Below, piece by piece: positions 1 to 38,587 of a stretch of 38,587 nt of DNA. Source of the DNA: a virus; the IMG/VR virus record IMGVR_UViG_3300036820_000043, positions 1 through 38,587 of that record; one strand, given 5' to 3'. The notes beneath the pieces were generated by a model. The model made no database searches and was not told the origin of the DNA. It worked only from the letters and a program-made list of their open reading frames with translations. Position 1 is the first letter of the stretch. The number at the start of each line of letters is the position of its first letter. The position numbers were made by a program, and so were the translations under genes.

Positions 1-127
1 CAGACAATGTCATTATTGGTACCGGTGCTGCTGTTGCTTATACAGGTGCTGAATCTGATAATATTGTTATTGGGTCCACAAATTCTAATCCAGGTTATGC
101 GGGAGATATGGGTGCCATTCGGATTGG
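1..127. repeat. Terminal direct repeat, copy 1 (circular overlap)
   Basis: Bases 1-127 are identical to bases 38461-38587. The repeat lies inside an open reading frame that continues in frame across the join. An exact 127-bp overlap is the usual assembly signature of a circular or circularly permuted molecule, so the true unit length is 38,460 bp. A real short terminal repeat is possible but less likely because it falls in mid-gene. Confidence 0.9.
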
Positions 128-1820
128 CACTAGCGCTTTTCAAACAACATGTTTTATTGCCGGTATTGATGGCGTCAATGTTGGCTCAGTAGCTACCGTG
201 GTTACTGAGGCTAGCAATCAACTTGGTACTGCAGTAATTACCGCAGGTTCTGGTATAACAGTCACTCCCGGAGCTAATACTATTACTATTGCGGCTACTG
301 GTGGGGGCGGAGGCATAACAACGATTGATGGCAATGTGGGTTCAGTTACGGGAGCGACAGTAACTATAGAATCTACCGGTGAAGGAACTGCTTTTACTAA
401 TGCAACAAGTGCCACTAATTTAAATTTACTTTTTACTGATGCAAATAGTAATGTTGGCATTGGAACCAGTGCTTTAGGTCTACTTTCAGGTGGCTATGAA
501 AATGTCATGGTCGGATCTATTGCCGGAGCTGCCTATACTACAGGAACTGCCGCAAGAAATACTGGACTAGGATGGGCTACTTTAAATGCTGATCAAACAG
601 GTTATTGGAATACAGCCATTGGTGCTGCAGCAGGGTCAAATCTTAATGGAGGAAACTTCAATGTTTTGATAGGACCTGGAGCAGGAACGGGCTATAACTC
701 TACTGAGCAATATAATATCGTATTAGGAAATGTAGCGGGAACGGGTGGAGAAAGTGGTGCAATTCATATAGGAGATGCGGGTAATAATACTACTTTTTAT
801 GCAGGTGGTATTAATGGCGTGAATGTCGGTTCAGTAGCGACTGTTGTTACCGGAGCTGCAACAGCAGGAGGGATTCAATTAGGAACTGCGGTAATAACTG
901 CTGGTACCGGAATCACTGTCACTCCTGGGGCAAATACTATTACTATTGATTCAACAGCAACAGGAACAGTTACTACTTTAACAGGCGATAGCGGTACGGC
1001 TTCTCCATCTGCCGGAAATATTAATATTGTAGTAGGTAATCAAGGAACTGCATTAATACAGGGTTCTTCTAATACATTGGGTTTGTTTTTTAGGGGTGGA
1101 GCGGTCAGCACCAATCTTTCTATTGGAAGTGTCTCATTGATATCTGCTACCGGAGGTAGTAATACTTCATTTGGCTCAGGTTTAAATAGTGTTACGAGTG
1201 GGTCGGGTAATACTGCCATAGGAGCGGGGGTATTATCATCAGTAACTACTGGAAGTAATAATAATGGGATGGGGCTTGACGTAGGAGGATTAATTTCTTC
1301 AGGAAATTATAATATTTTTATCGGAACTAATGCGGGAACGGCATATGTCACCGGTACCGAATCAAGCAATATATTATTTAATGCCAATGGAACTAATGGA
1401 GAAAATAATGTTCTCAGAATTGGTAATGCTACGGGAACAAGTACGCAGCAATTAAATTCCGCATATATATGCGGAATAACAGGTATAAATGTTACTGGAT
1501 CAGCTGTGATGGTTAATGCGTCAAATCAATTAGGTGTTACTGTTTCTTCTGCTCGTTATAAAGAAAATATACAAGATTTGGGTGATACCAGTTCATCTAT
1601 TATGAAACTTCGTCCCGTAAAATTTAATTATAAATCTGATCCTACTCCACAGACAGGGCTTATAGCTGAAGAAGTAGATAAAATTAATCCTCAGTTAGTT
1701 GTCTATGATCAAGAAGGATTGCCTCAAACAGTTAAGTATCATGATTTACCGGCTTTATTACTCAATGAAATACAAAAATTACGCAAAGAAGTAGATGAAT
1801 TAAAAAGGATTAAAGGATGA
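1..1820 (+). CDS. Long tail fibre with C-terminal S74 chaperone domain (3' part)
   Basis: This is the downstream part of a 701-aa protein that starts at 38175 and crosses the window ends in frame (first full codon at base 3). The body carries many NxxIGxxAG-like beta-roll repeats, as in trimeric adhesin heads. A GVNVGSVATVVT...GITVTPGANTITI module occurs twice (DNA about 178-293 and 823-950). The last ~90 residues are a Peptidase_S74 intramolecular chaperone: SSARYKENI begins at full-length residue 611, followed by LRPVKFNY, GLIAEEVDKI and a leucine-rich helix. In this family the Ser (S611) and Lys (K616) carry out self-cleavage after the fibre has trimerised. The next gene overlaps by ATGA. 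A receptor-binding role is inferred; family membership is clear. Confidence 0.9.
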   Translation, partial: DNVIIGTGAAVAYTGAESDNIVIGSTNSNPGYAGDMGAIRIGTSAFQTTCFIAGIDGVNVGSVATVVTEASNQLGTAVITAGSGITVTPGANTITIAATGGGGGITTIDGNVGSVTGATVTIESTGEGTAFTNATSATNLNLLFTDANSNVGIGTSALGLLSGGYENVMVGSIAGAAYTTGTAARNTGLGWATLNADQTGYWNTAIGAAAGSNLNGGNFNVLIGPGAGTGYNSTEQYNIVLGNVAGTGGESGAIHIGDAGNNTTFYAGGINGVNVGSVATVVTGAATAGGIQLGTAVITAGTGITVTPGANTITIDSTATGTVTTLTGDSGTASPSAGNINIVVGNQGTALIQGSSNTLGLFFRGGAVSTNLSIGSVSLISATGGSNTSFGSGLNSVTSGSGNTAIGAGVLSSVTTGSNNNGMGLDVGGLISSGNYNIFIGTNAGTAYVTGTESSNILFNANGTNGENNVLRIGNATGTSTQQLNSAYICGITGINVTGSAVMVNASNQLGVTVSSARYKENIQDLGDTSSSIMKLRPVKFNYKSDPTPQTGLIAEEVDKINPQLVVYDQEGLPQTVKYHDLPALLLNEIQKLRKEVDELKRIKG

Positions 1821-2650
1821 GTAATTTTCAAGGTGGTGGAGCACCACGTGGTATAGGATATACGGGAACATATGCCAATAGACCACCTAATATTCATTTC
1901 AATGATCGCGATCCCAATCAATATGATACTCAGAATTATTCTTTAATGGATTTCTGGTTGAATACTGTTTCATTAAATATTTTCTGTCTTGTTTCTCTGG
2001 CGGGCAATTCTTCTTCTAAGGGAATGCTCGCAGATTGGGTTCCTCTGAGTACAGGCGGTGTCGGTACGGTTGATACCCTAACTTCTAATACTGGAGGAGC
2101 AGTTTCTCCTTTAGCGGGAAATATTAATGTAGTGGGGGATGGTGTAACTATTACTGGTATAGGAAATCCCGGTGCGCATACGATTACGCTTTCAGCGGTT
2201 GCTACGGGAGAAGTGAGCACATTAACTGGTAATTCAGGAGGAGCAGTTTCTCCAGCAGCAAATAATATTAATGTGATCGGAGATGGAACTACCGTCAATG
2301 TTGTGGGTAATCCAGGTACTAATACCCTTACTATATCAGCAGTTAATACCGGACAGACTAAATTAAATTATACTTCAGTTACTACTACTCCTTATGTAGT
2401 TGCAGCAACGGATGATTATATAAGTGTAACAACGACTTCTTTGGCTATTACTGTTCAACTTCCTAATGCTCCTGCAACAGGACGCGTTTATACCATAAAA
2501 GATAAAACTAATAATGCCTCTGTTAATAATATTACGGTTACGACGGTTGGCGGTACGGTTACTATTGATGGCGCTACTACTTATGTAATGAATACCAATT
2601 ATGAAGCTATTAATGTCATATTTAATGGTACTAATTATGAGGTATGGTAA
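1817..2650 (+). CDS. Tail fibre / appendage protein with tandem ~50-aa repeats
   Basis: A 277-aa protein whose start overlaps the stop of the S74 fibre (ATGA), so translation is probably coupled. The N-terminal ~70 residues (NRPPNIHFNDRDPNQYDTQN, then a short hydrophobic stretch) look like an attachment domain. Two tandem copies of a module follow: STLTGNSGGAVSPAANNINV, then GDG, a variable stretch, GNPG and a TISAV end. A variant of this module also occurs in the neighbouring S74 fibre. The C-terminal part is Thr/Asn-rich beta sequence. It is probably a secondary fibre or adaptor. No enzyme motif is seen. Confidence 0.75.
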   Translation: MSNFQGGGAPRGIGYTGTYANRPPNIHFNDRDPNQYDTQNYSLMDFWLNTVSLNIFCLVSLAGNSSSKGMLADWVPLSTGGVGTVDTLTSNTGGAVSPLAGNINVVGDGVTITGIGNPGAHTITLSAVATGEVSTLTGNSGGAVSPAANNINVIGDGTTVNVVGNPGTNTLTISAVNTGQTKLNYTSVTTTPYVVAATDDYISVTTTSLAITVQLPNAPATGRVYTIKDKTNNASVNNITVTTVGGTVTIDGATTYVMNTNYEAINVIFNGTNYEVW

Positions 2651-3240
2651 TGGCATACAAAAGACAGTCTCCTGGTCCAATATCTGAAGGATATACCAAT
2701 GCATTGTCCATGGCCAATACTAATGGTACTGCATATTTTGACGGAACTAAGGTTAATACAGTCAATCCTGGTACTGCTTTACAAATTCTTAAGAGTAATG
2801 GCGCGGGAATGGCGCCTACTTTTCAAAGTTCATCGGGAGGATCAGGAGTAAGTATTATTGGATTTACCTCTCAAAATGATATATCGCCTAATCGATATCT
2901 TGCCACAACAACTACTGATTCTTATTTAGCCCCATTTGGTTTTAGAAATCCCGGCGCAGATTCTTCAGGATCAAATATAGTTATATGTCCTCTAACAGGG
3001 ACCTTTAGCAATATGTATGTATATATTTCTCAGAATCTTTCAACAACTGATGTTACTTTTAATCTCATAACCAATGGTATTAATAGTTTAATAGCGGTAA
3101 CAGTTCCTGCTGGAACAACGGGATTATTTTCAGATACTACTCATAGTATTGGTATTACTGCAGCTCAAACGGTTCAAATGTTCTGTCAACAAGCTACTAC
3201 TGGCAATGTATATGGCAGCATTTCTATTCAATTCTCGTAA
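2650..3240 (+). CDS. Small fibre protein, MAYKRQSP family paralogue 1
   Basis: A 196-aa protein, first of three tandem paralogues. An in-frame ATG at 2644 exists, but the start at 2650 overlaps the upstream stop as TAATG and gives the MAYKRQSP N-terminus shared with the next two genes. The N-terminal ~65 residues (GYTN, ANTNGTAYFDGTKVNTV, GTALQILKSNGAGMAPTFQ) match a module used twice inside the long fibre at 35781. The middle is variable. The C-terminal ~110 residues are a beta domain with SNMYVYIS, AVTVPAGTTGLFSDTTHSI. It is likely a receptor-binding tip or decoy that shares a docking module with the long fibre. Function is inferred from position and repeats. Confidence 0.8.
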   Translation: MAYKRQSPGPISEGYTNALSMANTNGTAYFDGTKVNTVNPGTALQILKSNGAGMAPTFQSSSGGSGVSIIGFTSQNDISPNRYLATTTTDSYLAPFGFRNPGADSSGSNIVICPLTGTFSNMYVYISQNLSTTDVTFNLITNGINSLIAVTVPAGTTGLFSDTTHSIGITAAQTVQMFCQQATTGNVYGSISIQFS

Positions 3241-3248
3241 GGAATAGT

Positions 3249-3848
3249 ATGGCATATAAAAGACAATCACCAGTCCCTATCGCAGAAAGTGGTACCAATT
3301 ATATTTCTCAATCGAATGTTAATGGCACTATTATATTTGATGGAACTGGACTTTCTTCATTGCCAACAGGAGTATCGGGATGGGTCTTAACTTCAATAGG
3401 CCCAGGATCATCCCCGGAATTTCAACCATTAGCTGGAAGTGGTTCATCTTGGATTGGGAGTGCGCAGGGTCGCGATAGTCAAATATCAAATTGGGATGGC
3501 ATTTCTCCTTTTTGGACTGTTTCTATATTTTCTCTTGGGGCTTATCAACAAGGAAATAGTATTCAACCTATATTCCCTTTTCCTTTTGCTTGTATTATTT
3601 CTAATTTATATGTAGTTGTTACGGCTAATAATTCATCAAATATTACGAGTAGTTTTATTAATATAAATGGTTCTAATACTTCATTGGGCGTAACAATTCC
3701 TGCTAATACTGTCGGAACATTTAGTGATACTACTCATAGTGTTACAGTAATGGCAGGAGACCTTATGTATTTGGTCTCAAATCAAACAGGAGGAATGACT
3801 CAGATAGTTAATGGAGCATTTACTATTCAAATAACTCCAGAGGAGTAA
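3249..3848 (+). CDS. Small fibre protein, MAYKRQSP family paralogue 2
   Basis: A 199-aa paralogue of its neighbours, 8 bp after the preceding stop and preceded by a GGAAT ribosome site. The N-terminus (MAYKRQSPVPIAESGTN, NVNGTIIFDGTGLSSLPTG, GWVLTSIGPGSSPEFQ) and the C-terminus (SNLYVVVTANNS, GVTIPANTVGTFSDTTHSV) are conserved. The central ~45 residues (QGRDSQISNWDGISPFWTVS) match neither paralogue. Constant ends around a changing middle suggest diversification of the exposed part. It probably assembles on the same base as the long fibres. Confidence 0.8.
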   Translation: MAYKRQSPVPIAESGTNYISQSNVNGTIIFDGTGLSSLPTGVSGWVLTSIGPGSSPEFQPLAGSGSSWIGSAQGRDSQISNWDGISPFWTVSIFSLGAYQQGNSIQPIFPFPFACIISNLYVVVTANNSSNITSSFININGSNTSLGVTIPANTVGTFSDTTHSVTVMAGDLMYLVSNQTGGMTQIVNGAFTIQITPEE

Positions 3849-3850
3849 AA

Positions 3851-4426
3851 ATGGCTTATAAAAGACAATCTCCATTACCGCTATCAGAAGGAGGAACTAA
3901 TACTTCTTCACTAACCAATGCCAATGGAGTTATATATTATGATGGAACAAAATTTAATACGACAACCGTAGGAACATCAGCCCAATTATTTACCTCTCAA
4001 GGAGCAGGAGCAGCACCTCAATTTATGACTGTTTCAGGAGCTGGAACTAATTCCATTATTGCTACAAGTGGCCTTACGCTAATCGGTACTAATGCTGCTA
4101 CTAATTATTTTATTCCTTATTCGCAGAATCCATCATCTAATCAAGTACAATCTCAATTTCCTATGCCAGTTTCAGGAACATTAAATAATATGTATGTATA
4201 TATAAATCCATCAAGCGCAATAGCAAGTGGGCCTAATACTATTACACTTTTAGTAAATCAAGTAGCCACTTCGTTAGTAGTTACAAGACCGAATGCAGCG
4301 ATAGGAACCTTTAGCAATACAACCGATTCAGTTGCTGTTTCTGCAGGAGATTTGATTCAATTTTCGTGTAATTCTTCAGGGTCAAATGCTCTTACAGGAC
4401 AAGTATCGGTACAATTAACGACATAA
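3851..4426 (+). CDS. Small fibre protein, MAYKRQSP family paralogue 3
   Basis: A 191-aa protein, last gene of the rightward fibre run, only 2 bp after the previous stop. It has the family N-terminus (MAYKRQSPLPLSEGGTN, NANGVIYYDGTKFNTTTVGT) and C-terminal domain (NNMYVYINPSS, VTRPNAAIGTFSNTTDSV). The N-terminal module is the closest of the three to the copy at about 36540-36660 in the long fibre (TTDGTLYFDGTKFNSTATGT). A hairpin terminator candidate follows directly, so it probably closes the late transcript. Exact virion location is unknown. Confidence 0.8.
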   Translation: MAYKRQSPLPLSEGGTNTSSLTNANGVIYYDGTKFNTTTVGTSAQLFTSQGAGAAPQFMTVSGAGTNSIIATSGLTLIGTNAATNYFIPYSQNPSSNQVQSQFPMPVSGTLNNMYVYINPSSAIASGPNTITLLVNQVATSLVVTRPNAAIGTFSNTTDSVAVSAGDLIQFSCNSSGSNALTGQVSVQLTT

Positions 4427-4612: not shown

Positions 4613-4831
4613 TTATATCGCATGTGATAATTCGGGTAAATATCCCCAATGAGTGTCTGGAAATTCCCAATTAAGACAACTATCACAACATGTATTGCAA
4701 TGACAAAATATATGGGGATTCTTAGAGCCTTCTGGCCAGCAATTTTCTATCATATGAATAGTTTTTCCATTAGTCGCTAAAACTATAATATCAAGTGGGG
4801 GCATTTCATCAGAAAATTTAATCCATTTCAT
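4613..4831 (-). CDS. DUF551-like small protein
   Basis: A 72-aa protein, last clear gene of the leftward operon. It follows the DUF551 pattern: MKWIKFSDEMPP at the start, a central strand (IIVLATNGKT) and a C-terminal THWGYLPEL that matches the family's usual THWMPLPEP. It also has several cysteines (CHCNTCCDSC). DUF551 proteins are common small early proteins of phages and prophages with no known activity. The start overlaps the upstream stop by ATGA, indicating translational coupling. Confidence 0.7.
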   Translation of the reverse strand: MKWIKFSDEMPPLDIIVLATNGKTIHMIENCWPEGSKNPHIFCHCNTCCDSCLNWEFPDTHWGYLPELSHAI

Positions 4832-5058
4832 TTATACTTTTCCAAACACTCTTTTAAGAATTTTTCTGTTTCCAATTCTTTTGCAAATACCAACTCTAAG
4901 AAATTTCCCATTTTCATCCATAGAGGATTAGATTCATCGCGAGATGTTTGAATCCATAATTCTTGAGCATCATCCAGGTGTTGATTCCATCGTGTTCCAT
5001 ATTCTGCGAGATCAAATCTTGTGGGGGCACTGTACCGAATCAGTCTGGACTGCTCCAT
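4828..5058 (-). CDS. Hypothetical early protein, 76 aa
   Basis: A small charged protein with no recognised family. The ATG lies 2 bp after the stop of the ERF gene, with AAGGA seven bases upstream, and its own stop overlaps the start of the DUF551-like gene. The C-terminal half (ELVFAKELETEKFLKECLEK) is predicted helical. Its position directly after ERF and coupled at both ends supports a real gene of the leftward early operon. Function unknown. Confidence 0.65.
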   Translation of the reverse strand: MEQSRLIRYSAPTRFDLAEYGTRWNQHLDDAQELWIQTSRDESNPLWMKMGNFLELVFAKELETEKFLKECLEKYK

Positions 5059-5060
5059 AA

Positions 5061-5741
5061 TTAATCCTTTCTACGGTTTCTTTCATAATCTTCTTGGGTT
5101 CTTTTGATTCTCATGATCTTATTACGTGCTTTATGATATTCAGAACGAGGTAAGTCTGCCAAGGTTCTAATGTCATGAGTTTCCATAATATCTCGTGCTA
5201 AGTCTTCCTGACCTTCAAGTTCAATACATAACTCTTCATACTGATCTTTGCTTACGACGTCGGTTCGGTCAACGGTTGGTTTAGGAACGCCTACGTTTTT
5301 ACGGATATCTTGTATTAATTTCTGTTCGGCTATTTCTTCACCATTATCATCAAAATTAAGCGGATCATTATCAGACGGTGCGATTCCTAAAATCATCAAT
5401 GCCTGACGGCGCTTTTTGATTTCATATATATTTCCATTAGTTCTTTCATTATTTCCTACCAGGATACGGGCAAATGAAGATATATATTGACCAGACTCAT
5501 GACCAATTAGAGTCTTTAATATTTCAGCGCCGCTTCCTTCATCCAGCAGTTCTGTGTATTGATAGAAAGCTAGGCCATTTATAGACAATGATTCATTGAC
5601 GGCTGATAATATGGCCTTCAAGTTAGCATACTTTCCTCCTGGGGCATCCTGGTTTGCTATTAATGTCTTATAACTTCCCTGGGCTTTAGCTAAAGCACCC
5701 ATAACATTATTAATCTCCGCTGATCGGTATTGGTTCTCCAT
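5061..5741 (-). CDS. erf: ERF-family single-strand annealing protein (copy 1)
   Basis: A 226-aa ERF superfamily recombinase. Residues about 37-62 carry the family core (GKYANLKAILSAVNESL, then GLAFYQ) and about 108-127 carry KKRRQALMILGIAPSDNDP, equivalent to the usual YARRYAL...LGIA.DDD segment. Such proteins anneal complementary single strands during phage recombination and genome circularisation. The ATG at 5741 is chosen because AGGAGA lies nine bases upstream; the ATG at 5750 abuts that site. The C-terminal ~60 residues (SKDQYEELCIELEGQEDLAR...SEYHKARNKIMRI) are a separate helical domain that resembles the end of the second ERF protein at 7320. It is divergent from that copy and lies on the opposite strand. 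Confidence 0.85.
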   Translation of the reverse strand: MENQYRSAEINNVMGALAKAQGSYKTLIANQDAPGGKYANLKAILSAVNESLSINGLAFYQYTELLDEGSGAEILKTLIGHESGQYISSFARILVGNNERTNGNIYEIKKRRQALMILGIAPSDNDPLNFDDNGEEIAEQKLIQDIRKNVGVPKPTVDRTDVVSKDQYEELCIELEGQEDLARDIMETHDIRTLADLPRSEYHKARNKIMRIKRTQEDYERNRRKD

Positions 5742-6027
5742 CGGCTTCATTCTCCTGCTCTTTTTGCCAGCAACAATATACTTCTTCTGCTTTTTTTATG
5801 ATTTGTTCTTCTTTAAGGGTGATATCTTCCATACTCTCTAAGATATCGGTACATGATTTACGTACTTCTCCTATTTGATATAAGGCATCCTCATAATGAG
5901 AAAGCATGTTCCTTTGACTACGCCTAAGCTGAATAATATCTTTTTTGATACACATAATGGTATATACAAAGCCTATATTAGAGGCAATAGTAATACTGAT
6001 ATATAAAGCCAAATATAAACGCTTCAC
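5710..6027 (-). CDS. Membrane-anchored coiled-coil protein (possible inner spanin)
   Basis: A 105-aa protein with one N-terminal membrane segment (LYLALYISITIASNIGFVYTIM, residues ~4-25) followed by a long charged helix (about 30-90) with several Cys. The start is GTG, with GGGAT upstream. The 3' end overlaps the ERF start by about 30 bp. The topology fits an inner-membrane spanin (Rz-like) or another membrane-anchored early protein. A lipoprotein gene upstream in the same operon could be its outer-membrane partner. The function is inference from topology only. Confidence 0.6.
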   Translation of the reverse strand: MKRLYLALYISITIASNIGFVYTIMCIKKDIIQLRRSQRNMLSHYEDALYQIGEVRKSCTDILESMEDITLKEEQIIKKAEEVYCCWQKEQENEADGEPIPISGD

Positions 6028-6074
6028 TTATGATCCCATTCTCTTGCGATAACATATATAACAAAGTGCTAACC

Positions 6075-6105
6075 ATGGGTTGCGAGTTTCTTGCCCGCAA
6101 CCCAT
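6075..6105. other. Perfect hairpin inside the leftward operon
   Basis: ATGGGTTGCG pairs with CGCAACCCAT (10 bp, no mismatch) around an 11-nt loop, between the 102-aa and 105-aa genes. There is no T-tract on either side, so it is more likely an mRNA processing, stability or attenuation element than a standard terminator. Confidence 0.6.
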
Positions 6106-6118
6106 ACAGATAATAAAC

Positions 6119-6427
6119 TTAGCTAGCTGGCTGATCTTTGCCATTTTCTGTAGCTCCAGATTTTTTAAGTTGATCTATAAAATCACTATAATGGTTCGTG
6201 GAATTTGTAACGAACTGATACCTATGGCCTATAAAATGAAAAACTGGGTACATTTCACCAAATTTACTCTGTATATCTTTAAGAAGTTGATTTACTTCTA
6301 CCAGGTTTGTTTCACCCAATGGCTTGCCGCGATGCTTATCTAGTTGGTTATGCAGTTCTATATATTCTTCATGAAGAGTTTGTAGTTGAGCATCAACTTC
6401 TTTTATTACTTCATCCATCTTTTTCAT
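6119..6427 (-). CDS. Hypothetical coiled-coil protein, 102 aa
   Basis: A charged helical protein. Residues 1-30 (MKKMDEVIKEVDAQLQTLHE and following) and about 45-57 have heptad-like leucine spacing; the middle contains aromatic MYPVFHFIGHRYQF. AAAGGATT sits five bases before the ATG. It is the fourth gene after the leftward promoter and is followed by a perfect hairpin. No family recognised. Confidence 0.65.
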   Translation of the reverse strand: MKKMDEVIKEVDAQLQTLHEEYIELHNQLDKHRGKPLGETNLVEVNQLLKDIQSKFGEMYPVFHFIGHRYQFVTNSTNHYSDFIDQLKKSGATENGKDQPAS

Positions 6428-6437
6428 GTTAATCCTT

Positions 6438-6668
6438 TTATTTGATTTGTTTTGGAAATCCTATGATATGGTGCAGTGTGCGCATATATTTCATTTCTTT
6501 CAATTCATCATTCATCTTTTTTTCTTGATCGTAATCTTTTTTATTACAAGCCAGTTCTTGAGCTTTTATTTTATCTTTAGAATGGATTCTTACTATTTTC
6601 TGTGAACCCATGCATGATGCCAAGACAAAAGTAATAGCTGACAATACAAGTAGTTTATATAGAGACAT
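6438..6668 (-). CDS. Small lipoprotein (possible outer spanin)
   Basis: A 76-aa protein with a type II signal sequence: MSLYKLLVLSAITFVLASC, lipobox LASC with the modified Cys at position 19. The mature part is ~57 residues and charged. A diderm host with lipoprotein processing is implied. The start overlaps the upstream stop as TAATG. Small phage lipoproteins are often outer spanins (Rz1-like) or superinfection-exclusion proteins. The early operon setting leaves both open. The lipobox is seen; the role is inferred. Confidence 0.7.
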   Translation of the reverse strand: MSLYKLLVLSAITFVLASCMGSQKIVRIHSKDKIKAQELACNKKDYDQEKKMNDELKEMKYMRTLHHIIGFPKQIK

Positions 6669-6838
6669 TAGAGCCCGTTTCTTTCTTTATAATTGATAGT
6701 AATTACTTCTGATAGTCCGTCTGATTTTTTTCGTTGCCAATCCAGGCATTCTGTACATATAGGAATAACTTTATCTTCAATATATACGGAGATATATACT
6801 TCTTCTCCGCAACTGCAGCAAAATTCAACCGTTTGCAC
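6668..6838 (-). CDS. Mini zinc-ribbon protein, 56 aa
   Basis: A GTG-initiated small gene in the leftward operon. AGGA lies eight bases before the start and the stop overlaps the lipoprotein start as TAATG. It contains CCSCGEE near residue 7 and CTEC at residues 28-31, giving two CxxC knuckles about 20 residues apart, the pattern of a small zinc ribbon. The C-terminus is basic then mixed (WQRKKSDG). It may bind nucleic acid or a host protein; no family is identified. Confidence 0.65.
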   Translation of the reverse strand: MQTVEFCCSCGEEVYISVYIEDKVIPICTECLDWQRKKSDGLSEVITINYKERNGL

Positions 6839-6839
6839 T

Positions 6840-6983
6840 TTAGTCTTCCTGACACGCTAGAATATTTGATTCCCATATTTCATGACATGCTTGGCACAAA
6901 ATATTATCAATATCTTCACCAACAATATTCAGGTCATGAGTTACCTCTTTTTCACAAGATGAACAGTATAGTTTGTTATCCAC
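6840..6983 (-). CDS. Mini zinc-ribbon protein, 47 aa, first gene of the leftward operon
   Basis: A GTG start with AAGGGA four bases upstream. The protein begins MDNKLYCSSCEKEVTHDL and has CQAC at residues 30-33, so CxxC (7, 10) and CxxC (30, 33) form a compact zinc-ribbon pattern like that of the next gene, 1 bp downstream. It is the first gene after the strong leftward promoter, so its product should appear very early. Function unknown; a small DNA- or protein-binding early effector is plausible. Confidence 0.65.
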   Translation of the reverse strand: MDNKLYCSSCEKEVTHDLNIVGEDIDNILCQACHEIWESNILACQED

Positions 6984-7018
6984 ATTTTCCCTTCATGGAT
7001 TAAATTAAACATGGTTTT

Positions 7019-7047
7019 ATTATTATATAAAAATATATTACTGTCAA
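7019..7047 (-). promoter_or_regulatory. Strong sigma70-type leftward promoter
   Basis: On the minus strand a perfect TTGACA (7047-7042) is separated by 17 bp from AATAAT (7024-7019, 5/6 match). It is placed to drive the zinc-ribbon to DUF551 operon. Its -35 lies 3 bp from that of the facing rightward promoter. Confidence 0.7.
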
Positions 7048-7050
7048 CTA

Positions 7051-7078
7051 TTTACATATAACTTAATATATGTATAAT
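7051..7078 (+). promoter_or_regulatory. Rightward early promoter
   Basis: TTTACA (7051-7056) and a perfect TATAAT (7073-7078) with a 16-bp spacer, 37 bp before the HTH regulator start. The spacer is almost filled by an inverted repeat, so occupation of that site would block this promoter. Confidence 0.6.
7053..7074. promoter_or_regulatory. 22-bp inverted repeat, probable operator of the early switch
   Basis: TACATATA and TATATGTA form a perfect 8-bp inverted repeat around 6 bp (ACTTAA). It lies between the -35 and -10 of the rightward promoter and next to the -35 of the leftward one. The downstream HTH protein is the obvious candidate ligand (inference). Confidence 0.6.
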
Positions 7079-7114
7079 AATATAATAATTAATCTAAAAC
7101 GAAAGGAACTTTTG

Positions 7115-7327
7115 ATGACATTTGACTTAGAGGAATATATTAAGAGACTGGAAGATATCCGGGCTGAGAAGCTGTGGTCGCGCTTGGAGTTGGCACGTTC
7201 TTTAGGTTTGGACTATCAGACACTTTTAAGATTATATAAACACAAAAAGATGCCACGTCCGGTGACTATGAGACGAATCAGAGACTTTGTGCGCAATTAT
7301 GATAATGGTCAGGATATTCATGGTTGA
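7115..7327 (+). CDS. Small helix-turn-helix regulator (Cro/XRE-like)
   Basis: A 70-aa protein, nearly all a helix-turn-helix domain: WSRLELARSLGLDYQTLLRL followed by a basic stretch (YKHKKMPRPVTMRRIRDFV). The ATG at 7115 follows AAAGGA by seven bases; an upstream in-frame ATG at 7070 lies within the promoter region and lacks a ribosome site. It is the first gene of the rightward operon and overlaps the second ERF gene. Its size and place next to divergent promoters are like those of phage Cro proteins. Autoregulation through the 7053-7074 inverted repeat is likely but inferred. Confidence 0.75.
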   Translation: MTFDLEEYIKRLEDIRAEKLWSRLELARSLGLDYQTLLRLYKHKKMPRPVTMRRIRDFVRNYDNGQDIHG

Positions 7328-7889
7328 AATTAAAGAGTATTGCATTGCTTTTATGAAGGCCAAGAAGAATTTTGTTAAGACAGGTATGAGTGGCCATGTT
7401 AAGGGTGGCGCTAAAGATTTCAAATATGCACGTCTTCCTGAAGTATATAATGCAGTAGAACAAGCACTGAATGAGCAAGACATAATAATTCAGCATTGCC
7501 GACAAGTTAAAGGAGAAGTAGAGGTTCTTATTACTTTTTTTATACATATTCCTTCTGGGCAATATACCAGAGATGAATGCCTTCTTGTTCCTGAAAAGCC
7601 GAATAATCAATCACGGGCCGGAGCGGTTACGACTATGCGTAAACAAGCGGTTCTGGTTCTGTGCGGTATTGCGACAGAAGAAGATGATGAATATTTTGAA
7701 GAAGAAGACAAAGAAGTCTATATCACTCAAGAGCAAAAAGAACATCTAGAAGTTGAACTTAAAAAGCATCCGCGAGATCATGCAGTCGCTTTATATAGAG
7801 ATATTACTAAAGAATACAAGATTACTTCATTTGCTTATTTGAAAGCATCTGATTACAGAGAAGTAGAATTAAAAGTACGTAAAGGATAA
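7320..7889 (+). CDS. ERF-family single-strand annealing protein (copy 2)
   Basis: A 189-aa ERF-like protein. Core segments are KYARLPEVYNAVEQAL (residues ~35-50) and GAVTTMRKQAVLVLCGIATE (about 101-120), followed by an acidic run (EEDDEYFEEEDKE), the normal ERF order. The ATG at 7320 is preceded by AGGA five bases upstream and overlaps the HTH gene by 8 bp; earlier TTG/ATG codons lack such a site. The C-terminal domain (TQEQKEHLEVELKKHPRDHA...LKASDYREVELKV) resembles that of the ERF at 5061-5741, so the two look like ancient paralogues with the same two-domain plan. SSB follows 2 bp later, which fits a role in strand annealing. Confidence 0.8.
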   Translation: MVEIKEYCIAFMKAKKNFVKTGMSGHVKGGAKDFKYARLPEVYNAVEQALNEQDIIIQHCRQVKGEVEVLITFFIHIPSGQYTRDECLLVPEKPNNQSRAGAVTTMRKQAVLVLCGIATEEDDEYFEEEDKEVYITQEQKEHLEVELKKHPRDHAVALYRDITKEYKITSFAYLKASDYREVELKVRKG

Positions 7890-7891
7890 CT

Positions 7892-8293
7892 ATGGATATG
7901 ACTCATACAAATTCAATAATACTTGTTGGTAGATTAGTACGTGAAGTTGAAGTAAAAGAAATCAGACCGGGTTTGAAGATTGGGAAGATGACAATTGCTA
8001 CGGATCACATCCATACGAACAAAGACGGTGCTACAACGAAAGAAACTTGTTTCACCGAATGTGTGGTATGGAATAAAATGGCGGATCGGTGCGGTGAGAA
8101 TTTGCGCAGAGGGTCTATGGTTGCCATTGAAGGACGGTTAAAGCTCGATACGTGGAAAGATAAAAGTTCGGGTGAAGAGCGCTCTAAGCATACGGTAGCC
8201 GTTACCAATGTAGTATTCATGGATCCAAAAGATACTACTAAAACTTCCTCAGAACCATTTAGTGGCTTTACTGGTGATGAGCTCCCTTTTTAA
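7892..8293 (+). CDS. ssb: Single-stranded DNA-binding protein
   Basis: A 133-aa OB-fold SSB. It starts with NSIILVGRLVREVEVK (family NKVILIGRLG), carries the FTECVVWNKMADRCGENLRRG core at about 49-68 and GSMVAIEGRLKLDTWKD, and ends in GDELPF, the acidic protein-interaction tip of bacterial and phage SSBs. It coats single-stranded DNA during replication and recombination and recruits partners. It lies 2 bp after the second ERF gene. AAAGGA precedes the ATG. Confidence 0.95.
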   Translation: MDMTHTNSIILVGRLVREVEVKEIRPGLKIGKMTIATDHIHTNKDGATTKETCFTECVVWNKMADRCGENLRRGSMVAIEGRLKLDTWKDKSSGEERSKHTVAVTNVVFMDPKDTTKTSSEPFSGFTGDELPF

Positions 8294-9227: not shown

Positions 9228-9433
9228 ACAAAAGATAGACATTAATCAAGAATCAAATTAAGCTGCTGATCGGCGTCGAAGTAGATGTCCAAACGTAAAA
9301 TAAGTACAGAAGGCCCAGGAAATAAATCCTGAGCCTGTCCATTTTATCAATCTTCCCTACCAGAGGATGTATGACAAATAAACTTAAAATCAAAAAACAA
9401 TTCCAAAACGAGTCACCCGACAAAGGAGGATTC

Positions 9434-10648
9434 ATGCTGAAAAGTTTTGTTAATTTCAAATTATGTAATAACTTTACTTCATCTACATCTTCGTGTCAAG
9501 AAGAAAACCTAAAAGAATTAACTGACACTCAAATCGTCATTTTAGATGAGATACTCAAATTGGGTAATAACTTTGATTTGGTCTTTCCATGTCAGCGGGG
9601 TTTGGGCAGAAAAGCTGGGGTTGGTATTCGCCAAGCACATAGAATTATTAAACAGCTATGCCAGATGGGTCTTCTTCAAAAGATTACTACTCCTTTTCAG
9701 TCATGTTATTACCAAGTAAATCCTATGTTATTAAATCCTGATGTTCGTAGGCGGTGGTCTCATGTTTTTTATGCATTTCGGTTCTTATCACTTATATTGC
9801 TTTTTTCAGGTTTACAGTCAAAAAATGTCGTACGTAGAATATCCGACCATAGGTCTTTTAATACATCGGTAATAGGGTCCTTAAAAAGAGAGCAGAAAAA
9901 AGGGAAAGTAATGGCACTTTACAAGACTGATGAACAAATAGAAATCATAAATCGGCTTGGCAAGGAACTTAAATTGACCCCGTTAGGTCATATTAAGTTC
10001 AGACCTTATCCGTTTGAATGTATTCAGTATGCTTACGATAAGCTCAAGTATGCCCGAAATGTGCAGAACTCAACGGTTTGGATGCTTAAGCTGTGTAATG
10101 AATGGTGCAAAGATAATAATATTACTCCTGATTGGGCTGTTTGTTTTAAACTTTATGACTATATGAAAGTTGATCCATTGGGACCACTTAATTTTTCAGT
10201 AATCGCAACCGATAAACCGTCTATGAAAAGAGAAGAGCGCCCTACCGGGCGTAAGCGCTTCGCTTCCCCTCAAAGGGACCAGCAAGAATCCAAAGCTACG
10301 GAGTATGATTTTCCGGCATACCGAGAGGGATTACTTAATACCCAAGAAACAGAGCAGATGCGTTCTGCCCTTAAAGAACCGAGCTATATGGCTTATCAGA
10401 TTGAATTGCGTAATTGCCGCGCCGCTCCCGCAGCCTTCAAAGAAGATTGGCTGAAAATTGAGCCTGCGTTATTATCACGAGGATGTCGGCAAGCTCTCAA
10501 GGAATATATAGAGGGAACCGTTGTCCCCACAGAAGGAGAAACGTTATTATCTTCTTTGGGGAAGGCGGTAACCGTTAAGGAACAAGCTACCCGGCTGTCT
10601 GAGAATAAATTATTATGTCAAAAGGAGAGCGATGGAGTTACAGGGTAA
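9434..10648 (+). CDS. Winged-helix replication initiator-like protein
   Basis: A 404-aa protein. Residues about 29-100 form a winged helix-turn-helix like those of phage O-type and plasmid Rep initiators: LTDTQIVILDEILKLG, then GRKAGVGIRQAHRIIKQLCQ, then a wing ending in YYQVNP. A hydrophobic patch follows (111-129). The second half is helical with a proline/arginine linker around 260-285. The ATG at 9434 is chosen because AAAGGAGGA lies just before it; an upstream ATG at 9371 has no such site. No helicase or polymerase gene is visible, so the phage would rely on the host replisome, as lambda O does. A hairpin cluster lies within this gene at 10237-10277. Function is inferred from fold and context. 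Confidence 0.6.
   Translation: MLKSFVNFKLCNNFTSSTSSCQEENLKELTDTQIVILDEILKLGNNFDLVFPCQRGLGRKAGVGIRQAHRIIKQLCQMGLLQKITTPFQSCYYQVNPMLLNPDVRRRWSHVFYAFRFLSLILLFSGLQSKNVVRRISDHRSFNTSVIGSLKREQKKGKVMALYKTDEQIEIINRLGKELKLTPLGHIKFRPYPFECIQYAYDKLKYARNVQNSTVWMLKLCNEWCKDNNITPDWAVCFKLYDYMKVDPLGPLNFSVIATDKPSMKREERPTGRKRFASPQRDQQESKATEYDFPAYREGLLNTQETEQMRSALKEPSYMAYQIELRNCRAAPAAFKEDWLKIEPALLSRGCRQALKEYIEGTVVPTEGETLLSSLGKAVTVKEQATRLSENKLLCQKESDGVTG
10237..10277. other. Three consecutive small hairpins inside the initiator-like gene (origin candidate)
   Basis: CGCCC-TACC-GGGCG, then AAGCG-CTT-CGCTT, then CCCT-CAA-AGGG follow one another almost without a gap. The segment is clearly more GC-rich than its surroundings and encodes the basic linker of the initiator-like protein. 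Lambdoid phages carry their origin inside the O gene, so this is a candidate origin structure. No iterons were recognised. Confidence 0.4.
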
Positions 10649-11039
10649 AGTATACTGTGTATTTATTAATCCCTTGGCTTGGTATAGATACAGAACTGAT
10701 GATTATAGAGGATTTGATAAACGAGTGACCGATAAGGTGAGGTATGATTTAACCATGCAGCGCATACATGGGGATGATCCTTTATGGGATGTTCCGATTG
10801 ATATGACCCTTGCTTTTTATATGAAATTGCCCCATACCGTTAAACACAAAAATAATAACACTATATTTCATGACCAATGGCCATCGGTACATGAAATGAG
10901 CAATATATTTGTAAATGGCATGCGAGATACGATTATTACTAATCCTGATATAATATGTCGTCTTAATAGCAAAAAGATATACGCAAAAACACCTCGTATT
11001 GTATGTATTATTAGTGAAAGTAAACCAGATGAAGAATAA
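10632..11039 (+). CDS. RusA-like Holliday junction resolvase, divergent
   Basis: A 135-aa protein of RusA size and layout: PLAWYRYRTDD at the start, a PIDMTLAFYMKLPHTVKH strand region, then WPSVHEMSNIFVNGMRDTII and a Lys-rich strand ending YAKTPRIVCIIS. RusA enzymes cut four-way junctions with a KPDxDNL...D site. Here the equivalent of PDxDN reads PSVHE and only later acidic residues (NPDII) remain, so catalysis may be altered or the match may be to the fold only. AAAGGAGAG precedes the ATG and the gene overlaps the initiator-like gene by 17 bp. Confidence 0.5.
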   Translation: MELQGKVYCVFINPLAWYRYRTDDYRGFDKRVTDKVRYDLTMQRIHGDDPLWDVPIDMTLAFYMKLPHTVKHKNNNTIFHDQWPSVHEMSNIFVNGMRDTIITNPDIICRLNSKKIYAKTPRIVCIISESKPDEE

Positions 11040-11914: not shown

Positions 11915-12298
11915 ATGACAAGATGGTTAAGACAAATAAGATGGATGTTTGCTTCAAAGTTATCACAACAAGTTTCTGGTATAGTTTCTGAAAAGGTTAT
12001 TCCTGATATTACAAAGCTTTATAGAGAACAGAAAATAACTGCGGGAAATTTAGAGAATATGACTCATTTTGTGGGGGAAATTATTAAAGAGTTTCCCAAA
12101 CTTGAAGAGCGCGTTATTAAGCTTGAAACCGATAGCACATTTCTTTTGGCCCAACTTGATGCAAAAGAAAAAGAACTTGCCGAGTGCCATACGCAGCTTT
12201 CACAAGTATTAGAAAATGAAGTTTCTCAATCGCCATGTCTTGGTGAAAGATTTAGAACAAGTAGAGGCACTAAAAGAAGTGCCAAGAAGAAGGATTAA
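11915..12298 (+). CDS. Hypothetical coiled-coil protein, 127 aa
   Basis: The ATG at 11915 is chosen because AAGGAG lies seven bases upstream; an in-frame ATG at 11894 sits before that site. An amphipathic basic N-terminus (TRWLRQIRWMFASKL) could touch membrane or DNA. A long coiled coil follows (LEERVIKLETDSTFLLAQLD) and a Lys/Arg-rich tail. Its stop overlaps that of the leftward gene 12295-12561 by a few bases, so there is no room for a terminator between them. Function unknown. Confidence 0.6.
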   Translation: MTRWLRQIRWMFASKLSQQVSGIVSEKVIPDITKLYREQKITAGNLENMTHFVGEIIKEFPKLEERVIKLETDSTFLLAQLDAKEKELAECHTQLSQVLENEVSQSPCLGERFRTSRGTKRSAKKKD

Positions 12299-12561
12299 GC
12301 CCCTTCGAAGTCATCTTTGCTGAGAATAATAAAATCTTCTGGTTCTTCTATCATGCGGTATGATTTGATGTGCAGCTGAATTATTTCCCGGCGGCTGGCT
12401 AATGACGAATCAATTTCCATTGCCTCTTGTTCCATGATCTGCATAGCTTTTAAGAAAAAGCGGTAACGGTTTGATTTTTCCTGTGCAGAGCGTTCATAGT
12501 CCATACGGTCCATGCCGGAAGCGGTAGATAATATTATGACCCCCAACAATATGATCTTCAT
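12295..12561 (-). CDS. Secreted small protein on the opposite strand
   Basis: An 88-aa leftward gene inside an otherwise rightward region. AAGGAGAT is placed a few bases before the ATG. The first ~16 residues (MKIILLGVIILSTASG) are a signal peptide without a lipobox Cys; the mature part is charged and helical (MDYERSAQEKSNRYRF, EIIQLHIKSYRMIEEPEDF). An envelope-acting accessory protein is plausible. Its ends overlap the convergent gene on the right strand. Confidence 0.6.
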   Translation of the reverse strand: MKIILLGVIILSTASGMDRMDYERSAQEKSNRYRFFLKAMQIMEQEAMEIDSSLASRREIIQLHIKSYRMIEEPEDFIILSKDDFEGA

Positions 12562-16900: not shown

Positions 16901-17185
16901 ATGAAGAATCTCATATGTCTTTTAGTGTTACTTAATACGACAACCCTTATGGCGGGAGAAAAGAGTTTTAGCTCTCAACAACCAGGGTTGCCTGAAATAA
17001 GACATTCTATTGATCATAAAGCAGAAGCCGAAGGTCTACGTGGAGAACTTGCTCGAACCAAATCTTATCATGAAGCACAAATTAAACAGGAGAAATGCAA
17101 ATCGCTCACCGCAGTACTTACTGCTTGTGGTTCTTTTCTAGGTGCAGTTGCTTCGTTTATATATTCTGTGAAGAAATGTAATTAA
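16901..17185 (+). CDS. Signal peptide plus C-terminal membrane protein (u-spanin-like topology)
   Basis: A 94-aa protein with a cleavable-type signal (MKNLICLLVLLNTTTLMAG), a middle charged helix (EAEGLRGELARTKSYHEAQI) and a C-terminal membrane segment (AVLTACGSFLGAVASFIYSV) ending KKCN. Envelope-spanning with both ends hydrophobic is the layout of single-gene spanins, but those have a lipobox Cys and none is visible at the cleavage site. A strong GGAG lies upstream. It sits between the large terminase and the portal promoter. The role is inferred from topology. Confidence 0.6.
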   Translation: MKNLICLLVLLNTTTLMAGEKSFSSQQPGLPEIRHSIDHKAEAEGLRGELARTKSYHEAQIKQEKCKSLTAVLTACGSFLGAVASFIYSVKKCN

Positions 17186-38174: not shown

Positions 38175-38587
38175 ATGTCACAAGTTGTATTTTATGGATC
38201 AGGAGGGAGCGGTGGAACTCCTATAGAAACTATTGATGGTAATACTGGATTTGTTGCGGGTTCTACAATTAATTTGATAACACCCGTTACTGAAAAAACA
38301 TTAATGTTTAATGGTAATGATTCTTTCACTATGACTCTTAATACTACTGATACTGTAGGAAATGTGTCATTGGGTCTGGGAGCCTTTATTAATGGGGCGG
38401 CTGGTTCAGAAAGAAATACCGTTCTAGGATCTCTGGCCGGAGGAAATTTAACGACTGGTACAGACAATGTCATTATTGGTACCGGTGCTGCTGTTGCTTA
38501 TACAGGTGCTGAATCTGATAATATTGTTATTGGGTCCACAAATTCTAATCCAGGTTATGCGGGAGATATGGGTGCCATTCGGATTGG
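38175..38587 (+). CDS. Long tail fibre with S74 chaperone (5' part)
   Basis: First 137 codons of the 701-aa fibre that continues at base 1 of the window; bases 38461-38587 repeat bases 1-127. TAGGAGATAGGT precedes the ATG. The start (MSQVVFYGSGGSGGTPIETI) is a short glycine-rich leader common to phage fibres; repeats of the NxxIGxGAA type begin near residue 96. The last gene of the circle before the join. Confidence 0.9.
   Translation, partial: MSQVVFYGSGGSGGTPIETIDGNTGFVAGSTINLITPVTEKTLMFNGNDSFTMTLNTTDTVGNVSLGLGAFINGAAGSERNTVLGSLAGGNLTTGTDNVIIGTGAAVAYTGAESDNIVIGSTNSNPGYAGDMGAIRI
38461..38587. repeat. Terminal direct repeat, copy 2 (circular overlap)
   Basis: Identical over all 127 bases to the start of the window. 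Removing one copy restores an uninterrupted 701-codon fibre gene and leaves a 38,460-bp circle. Confidence 0.9.

Follow-up and report, generated by a model that had tools for sequence, protein, structure and literature searches.

A phage clade that retains two diverged Erf-type proteins, one with a remodelled long-helix signature

Why would a phage keep two annealing proteins of the Erf type? The question is raised by IMGVR_UViG_3300036820_000043, an IMG/VR virus record of 38,587 bp that we analysed over its whole length (hereafter the window), in which each of two operons encodes one such protein. A preliminary description of this DNA, made from the sequence alone, had picked out both proteins, considered them highly diverged, and pointed to motifs common to them (a KYA.L..(I/V)..AV core and an R(R/K)QA...LGIA segment) and to a matching C-terminal helical domain. 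The quoted motifs are present in the sequence; the operons, described there as facing, are in fact divergent, running back to back. The two genes are:

5061-5741, minus strand: ERF1, a derived Erf-type annealing protein of 226 amino acids (aa) with an ATG start, assigned by PHROG profiles, fold and tree

7320-7889, plus strand: ERF2, an Erf-type annealing protein nearer the canonical kind, 189 aa, assigned by Pfam and PHROG profiles, fold and tree; an alternative TTG start at 7287 would lengthen it to 200 aa

Both proteins match the Erf-like families of PHROG, ERF1 with E values of 1.3e-14 (phrog_2324) and 7.3e-10 (phrog_155), and ERF2 with 2.5e-15 and 8e-11 against the same two. Against the Pfam ERF family (PF04404), ERF2 scored 30.6 bits (E = 3.9e-7), above the curated cut-off of 25, and ERF1 scored 18.2 bits (E = 0.0027), below it; neither protein was matched in NCBIfam or in PADLOC. 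Because ERF1 lies below the Pfam cut-off and has no NCBIfam match, we class it as a subfamily derived from Erf within the superfamily, and not as a member of Pfam ERF. The pairwise identity of the two window proteins is 23%, in line with the divergence first noted. The profile of the ERF1 clade defined below nevertheless aligned with that of the ERF2 clade at 99.7% probability (E = 3.7e-25) over 197 columns that cover the C-terminal part, and with 15 control ERFs at 99.6% (hhalign, E = 3e-24). Chance resemblance of ERF1 to ERFs is ruled out by the PHROG matches, the fold match and the profile-profile alignment. ERF1 and ERF2 are two homologous Erf-type (Rad52-superfamily) proteins, as had been claimed, and the possibility raised at that time, that one of them lies outside the ERF superfamily, did not hold, since ERF1 matches phage Erf profiles even though it falls under the Pfam cut-off.

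Structure prediction on both proteins, which had been proposed as a check, gave models with a common core and C-terminal unit. In the AlphaFold models (mean predicted local distance difference test score, pLDDT, 81.7 for ERF1 and 90.7 for ERF2), two helices, three strands and a long helix are followed by a three-helix C-terminal unit; the matching C-terminal helical domain is thus seen in the models as well as in the profile-profile alignment. The alignments supplied to AlphaFold and to hmmsearch (A4 and A5) include canonical ERFs, and profile searches with them are not tests of ERF1 or ERF2 alone. For both models the nearest solved structure was the phage protein Gp77 (PDB 9y6u), matched by ERF1 with Z 12.5 and a root-mean-square deviation (rmsd) of 2.7 over 114 residues, and by ERF2 with Z 12.0 and an rmsd of 4.7 over 116 residues. 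This likeness of fold comes with 20–23% identity over about 115 residues, and Gp77 is known here by its structure title (RAZR:GP77) alone. RAD52 and Mgm101 came next for the ERF2 model at Z 6–7; for the ERF1 model they scored about Z 5, and unrelated LptE chains scored equally high. In the models, both proteins display the architecture that characterizes the Rad52 superfamily, a long helix lying across a sheet of three strands. A Rad52-Erf relationship has already been published (PMC11783212).

The second Erf-type gene is not peculiar to the window. A search with an alignment of three terminases yielded 71 loci, and ERFs were then sought in those of the records that were 10 kb or longer, 47 in all. 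Twenty-four records carried two ERFs (including G001 and G004, which had also supplied query terminases), eight carried one, and 15 carried none. Twenty-eight of the records reached 30 kb; sorted by best-segment terminase identity, they had two ERFs in 19/20 at ≥65%, 2/3 at 50–64% and 0/5 below 50%. In the sole exception at ≥65%, G052, ERF1 sits at the extreme contig end, and one of the 19, G036 (also among the 24), has a shortened ERF1 (E = 0.0017). With the window, the 24 relatives make up a set of 25 two-ERF genomes. The search for other phages with both copies, suggested in the preliminary description, therefore had a positive outcome, and the two-ERF state is a property of the clade, retained clade-wide. 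In G036 (L306, 6130-6579), ERF1 has suffered an in-frame loss of about residues 70–146, in the annealing core, with the C-terminal domain still open; the loss is either real or an assembly fault.

We compared this with 46 other ERF-bearing phage records, made up of 16 named phages (15 from the ERF1 match list and one from that of ERF2) and 30 IMG/VR records from three queries, many of them near-identical and probably from Staphylococcus phages. A single ERF was found in 45 of the 46. Cylindrospermopsis phage Cr-LKS4 (OQ625504; L021, L337, L338) had been chosen as a control because an earlier search showed two ERF places in it. It resembles the clade in having more than one copy (three ERF matches, two of them identical proteins), but in this 101-kb record the two distinct ERFs pair together in the tree (98/96), apart from ERF1 and ERF2, and we regard it as an independent case of several ERFs in one phage. 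Across the phage collection, tblastn with three queries found 1480 ERF places in 1478 records, 1092 in 1089 and 925 in 923; the best query recovers 18/29 ERF1 and 14/23 ERF2 proteins of the clade, and since diverged second copies could escape, these counts bound the frequency of two-ERF phages only roughly. That phages normally carry one annealing protein, as had been stated, agrees with both the controls and the tblastn counts. Single-protein viral searches found three relatives for ERF1 and none for ERF2, and alignment-based searches found four and one. Among the papers listed by literature searches, many of them concerned with unrelated uses of the term ‘ERF’, none was about two ERF proteins in one phage. 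The Erf family itself is known; the conserved pair of specialised Erf proteins in a phage clade is a real feature that we did not find described in these searches, whose value was limited.

How the pair arose was examined in a tree of 77 ERFs, for which the bootstrap had not settled (0.984). The 29 ERF1 rows grouped as one clade and the 23 ERF2 rows as a separate one, each with 100/99 support, so that the ERF phylogeny that had been called for resolves two distinct, well-supported groups. Recent duplication, which had been put forward as an explanation that close similarity would reveal, is ruled out by the 23% identity and the two separate clades. A further lineage, ERF2b, occupies the place of ERF2 in four genomes, and more distant relatives with a single ERF supply three sequences that are sister to ERF1 with moderate support (88/87). 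Profiles of the C-terminal domains were searched at E 0.01. That of ERF2 found 26/29 ERF1, 4/4 ERF2b and 1/16 control ERFs, that of ERF1 found 12/23 ERF2, 3/4 ERF2b and 0/16 controls, and each found 3/4 ERFs from remoter terminase relatives that have a single copy. Since ERF1 and ERF2 have in common a C-terminal domain that is present in at most 1/16 controls, an old duplication is favoured, and the two are probably paralogues. Two independently acquired annealases, each with its own partners (a single-strand DNA-binding protein, SSB, and replication genes for ERF2; a 102-aa protein for ERF1) and different DNA substrates, would account for the free tree, in which the control ERFs fall between the two clades, for the separate operons of 18/24 linked pairs, for the recurring neighbours that ERF1 has of its own and for the replacement of ERF2 by ERF2b. 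They would not lead one to expect the common C-terminal domain, nor that the genes stay 0.5–3 kb apart in 24/25 genomes. Moreover, a single clade of ERF1, ERF2 and ERF2b was not rejected in the approximately unbiased (AU) test (p = 0.268), a value compatible with duplication and with two acquisitions alike. We consider independent acquisition rather unlikely.

The two lineages differ most plainly on the long helix, where all 16 control ERFs carry T/S-Y-x-R/K-R/K-Y, a signature that we defined from these controls ourselves (16/16). The first column holds T or S in 16/16 controls, 23/23 ERF2 and 0/29 ERF1, where it is E in 25/29 and a gap in one row. Tyrosine occupies the second signature place in 3/29 ERF1 and the last place in none, and the full signature occurs in 0/29. 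The basic pair is retained: of the 28 ERF1 rows that have a residue there, 25 carry K or R at one position of the pair and all 28 carry R at the other. Among ERF2 proteins, 16/23 have the strict motif, with T in 23/23, the first Y in 22/23 and the last Y in 17/23. As judged from these alignments, the signature is remodelled in ERF1 and mostly kept in ERF2. Because the three single ERFs that are sister to ERF1 retain T-Y, the change is most simply placed on the ERF1 branch.

Of the two proteins, ERF1 is the more conserved. Over 20 of the 25 genomes (the set minus G036 and the four ERF2b genomes), ERF1 was more conserved than ERF2 in 190/190 genome pairs, with mean identities of 63.8% vs 43.9%. 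Ratios of nonsynonymous to synonymous substitution rates (dN/dS) were 0.025–0.073 for ERF1 and 0.127–0.265 for ERF2, with 8/10 near pairs measurable for each; the pairs were hand-picked near pairs, and dS was near or over saturation for many. By part, identity was 68.6% in the core and 61.6% in the C-terminal domain of ERF1, and 51.8% and 29.0% in ERF2, so that the gap between the proteins is widest in the C-terminal domain. By these substitution patterns, both genes are kept as working proteins under purifying selection, ERF1 more tightly. A decaying redundant copy is ruled out by dN/dS, with the G036 deletion as the exception.

The preliminary description had also suggested that one copy might protect against host inhibitors that act on the other. 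The same figures bear on whether ERF1 is a decoy, a backup or a variant that evades host defences which sense or block Erf-type proteins. SaPI2 Stl2 and AbiK/AbiA have been reported or proposed to act on phage annealing proteins (PMC11846896 and PMC8093625, respectively), and Gp77, the closest solved fold, comes from a complex titled RAZR:GP77, for which we have the title alone; a literature search on RAZR found no paper. The rapid change of the ERF2 C-terminus (29.0% identity vs 51.8% in the core) could also fit an arms race. It is ERF1, however, the presumed escape copy, that is the conserved one (190/190 pairs; dN/dS ≤0.073), unlike what an arms race would produce, and near relatives almost all retain both genes, whereas decoys should turn over. 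We therefore think a role in evading host defences very unlikely.

The surroundings of the two genes in the window are as follows.

4828-5058, minus strand: 76-aa protein just behind ERF1, with relatives in 13/25 two-ERF genomes

6119-6427, minus strand: 102-aa protein in the ERF1 operon, with no credible Pfam or PHROG match

7047-7019 (leftward) and 7051-7078 (rightward): back-to-back sigma-70-like promoter sites, 11/12 consensus matches each

7070-7327, plus strand: small helix-turn-helix (HTH)-like protein, encoded at the head of the rightward operon, with weak HTH matches, all under Pfam cut-offs

7892-8293, plus strand: SSB, directly behind ERF2 (3 nt), matching Pfam SSB (1.8e-25) and phrog_44 (9e-31)

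9371-10648, plus strand: possible replication-initiation protein with an HTH, downstream of ERF2, from weak matches to Pfam HTH_36 (9.8e-5, under the cut-off) and phrog_428 (0.023)

10632-11039, plus strand: RusA-like Holliday junction resolvase on the strand of ERF2, matching phrog_140 (2.9e-8) and Pfam RusA (0.011, under the cut-off)

Several of these neighbours recur. Relatives of the 102-aa gene are present in 21/25 genomes, upstream of ERF1 on its strand in 19/21; relatives of the HTH-like gene lie ahead of ERF2 in 18/25, and relatives of the possible replication-initiation protein are found in 18/25. The observation that only the second copy adjoins an SSB extends beyond the window: an SSB match was detected in 6/25 genomes, always on the strand of the second ERF and 0–604 nt downstream, behind ERF2 in five and behind ERF2b in G079. 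The remaining 19/25 two-ERF genomes gave no SSB match, and the statement that ERF2 always goes with SSB is false. In phages of Firmicutes, an ssb gene accompanies erf in almost 80% of cases (PMC8093625). The locus resembles this erf-ssb module of the Erf family (PF04404, PHROG 2324/155) in the profile match and fold of ERF2 and in the SSB that immediately follows it, and departs from it in having a second, remodelled copy, which scores below the Pfam cut-off and is without the T-Y/Y signature. A YqaJ exonuclease partner (PF09588) was dropped, with 0/25 genomes matched where positive controls were (other exonuclease families were not searched for). In the window, two tiny reading frames with CxxC pairs (6668-6983, minus strand), zinc-ribbon-like, head the ERF1 operon.

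Whether the two proteins act at the same time can be judged from how their genes are arranged. In 24/25 genomes the genes are linked, within 0.5–3 kb of each other, divergently in 18 and in tandem on one strand in six. We scanned the 18 divergent loci for the sigma-70-like consensus only (at least 10/12 matches), and back-to-back sites were present between the operons in 14/18 vs 0.4 expected from shuffles, which, as whole-region shuffles, may understate chance in AT-rich gaps; these are consensus matches only. The window sites are the two best of the scanned region. The preliminary description had proposed that the copies may work at different times, and one annealase acting early and the other late would suit their position on opposite strands in the window and 17 further genomes. 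The 6/24 tandem pairs and the back-to-back sites of one scanned type at 14/18 loci weaken that suggestion and make joint expression likelier than separate timing, so that a temporal division of labour seems highly improbable and ERF1 and ERF2 are probably made together.

From these comparisons we infer annealing activity, joint expression, division of labour and an origin by duplication. The reading to which we incline, with some confidence but well short of certainty, is that of a co-expressed, long-kept pair of specialised paralogous annealing proteins, in which a canonical ERF2 works with SSB and a remodelled ERF1 has a non-redundant second job. Both operons would be switched on early by way of the promoter region they share. 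ERF2 would be the usual Erf, loading on strands coated with SSB, whether the phage's or the host's, and annealing such strands during recombination-linked replication; the RusA-like resolvase lies downstream on its strand. ERF1 would keep the fold, the basic pair and a conserved, probably partner-binding C-terminus, with an altered groove. It would do its second job at the same early stage, and without it the clade would rarely persist; ERF1 may form oligomers together with ERF2 or alongside it, or may act on a different DNA intermediate. The Erf protein of phage D3 acts as a recombinase on diverged DNA (PMC3945230).

A stronger form of this proposal, which we offer only tentatively, is that ERF1 and ERF2 make up an obligate two-subunit viral annealase, a phage counterpart of Rad52-Rad59, whose mixed rings would achieve what neither protein does alone. 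After duplication, ERF2 would have kept the groove signature and the coupling to SSB, and ERF1 the conserved C-terminal domain with a remodelled groove. Yeast Rad52 and Rad59 are a pair of unequal paralogues. The likeness is that two unequal paralogues of one annealing superfamily occur in one genome, one of them nearer the canonical form; the difference is that for ERF1 and ERF2 only co-retention and co-location are known.

Several observations weigh against a long-kept, co-expressed pair of specialised paralogues. Four genomes carry ERF2b in place of ERF2, and the AU test does not decide between duplication and two acquisitions. Alone among the 23 ERF2 proteins, that of the window reads T-T where the others read T-Y, and it also has Q for the last Y, so that the strict motif is absent in that copy. 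The core loss in G036 means that an intact ERF1 may be dispensable there, unless the contig is wrong, and in G051 the ERF genes lie 19.7 kb apart on a linear contig. Besides the limits of the shuffles, a plain count of promoter-like sites gives 19 for the region scanned in the window, within chance expectation (16.2, sd 4.7).

Rad52-superfamily annealing proteins have mostly been studied one gene at a time. A clade that almost always keeps two, with unequal conservation of core and C-terminus, offers a natural system for studying how annealases share their work: do viruses form mixed rings, and where in the protein does adaptation to SSB or to host factors lie? Through ERF1 it also contributes a divergent Erf subfamily, one that scores below Pfam's curated threshold and may be worth trying in recombineering.

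Tail-fibre-type genes are frequent companions of the locus, with fibre-family genes near the ERF loci in 24/25 genomes (within the neighbourhood stretches examined). Window genes 108-1820 and 1817-2650 match tail-fibre PHROGs; the window members also include an endosialidase-chaperone domain, and the member in L003 matches nothing. The tail-fibre-type genes beside ERF1 (window 1-4426) hold diverged direct repeats, 72–84% identical, which are the kind of substrate that Rad52-type recombinases handle. A role for ERF1 in recombining these genes was set aside, since genes and repeats are adjacent and nothing links them functionally. In Klebsiella phage Diencephalon (L022) and Cronobacter phage CS01 (L203), erf-ssb genes run toward a tail-fibre gene on the opposite strand.

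As for the genome as a whole, positions 1-127 and 38461-38587 of the window are an exact direct terminal repeat, and because of this 127-bp repeat we take the record to be a closed phage genome, either circular or circularly permuted. It also encodes a terminase, a portal and a major head protein; a tRNA scan and an Rfam scan of the window were both empty. The GenBank phage collection contained no close relative: none of its terminase matches came up to 60% identity, and the top-ranked one was at 38%. A temperate phage with a tyrosine integrase was dropped as a candidate, with matches in 0/25 two-ERF genomes (serine integrases were not searched for). A search of genome contigs gave a single Halomonas locus; a Halomonas genome (L012, L013, L015, L017) has three ERF matches across three contigs, perhaps in separate prophages. 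The terminase genes of two more distant relatives (L004, 6311-8521, and L005, 5052-7448, both minus strand) appear to contain an intein-like insertion, with an HNH-like frame inside it in another frame. Small proteins with signal-peptide-like starts are encoded in the window at 16901-17185 (plus strand) and 12295-12561 (minus strand), with similar ones in L003 and L004; they recall those of Dependentiae, a possible hint of the host.

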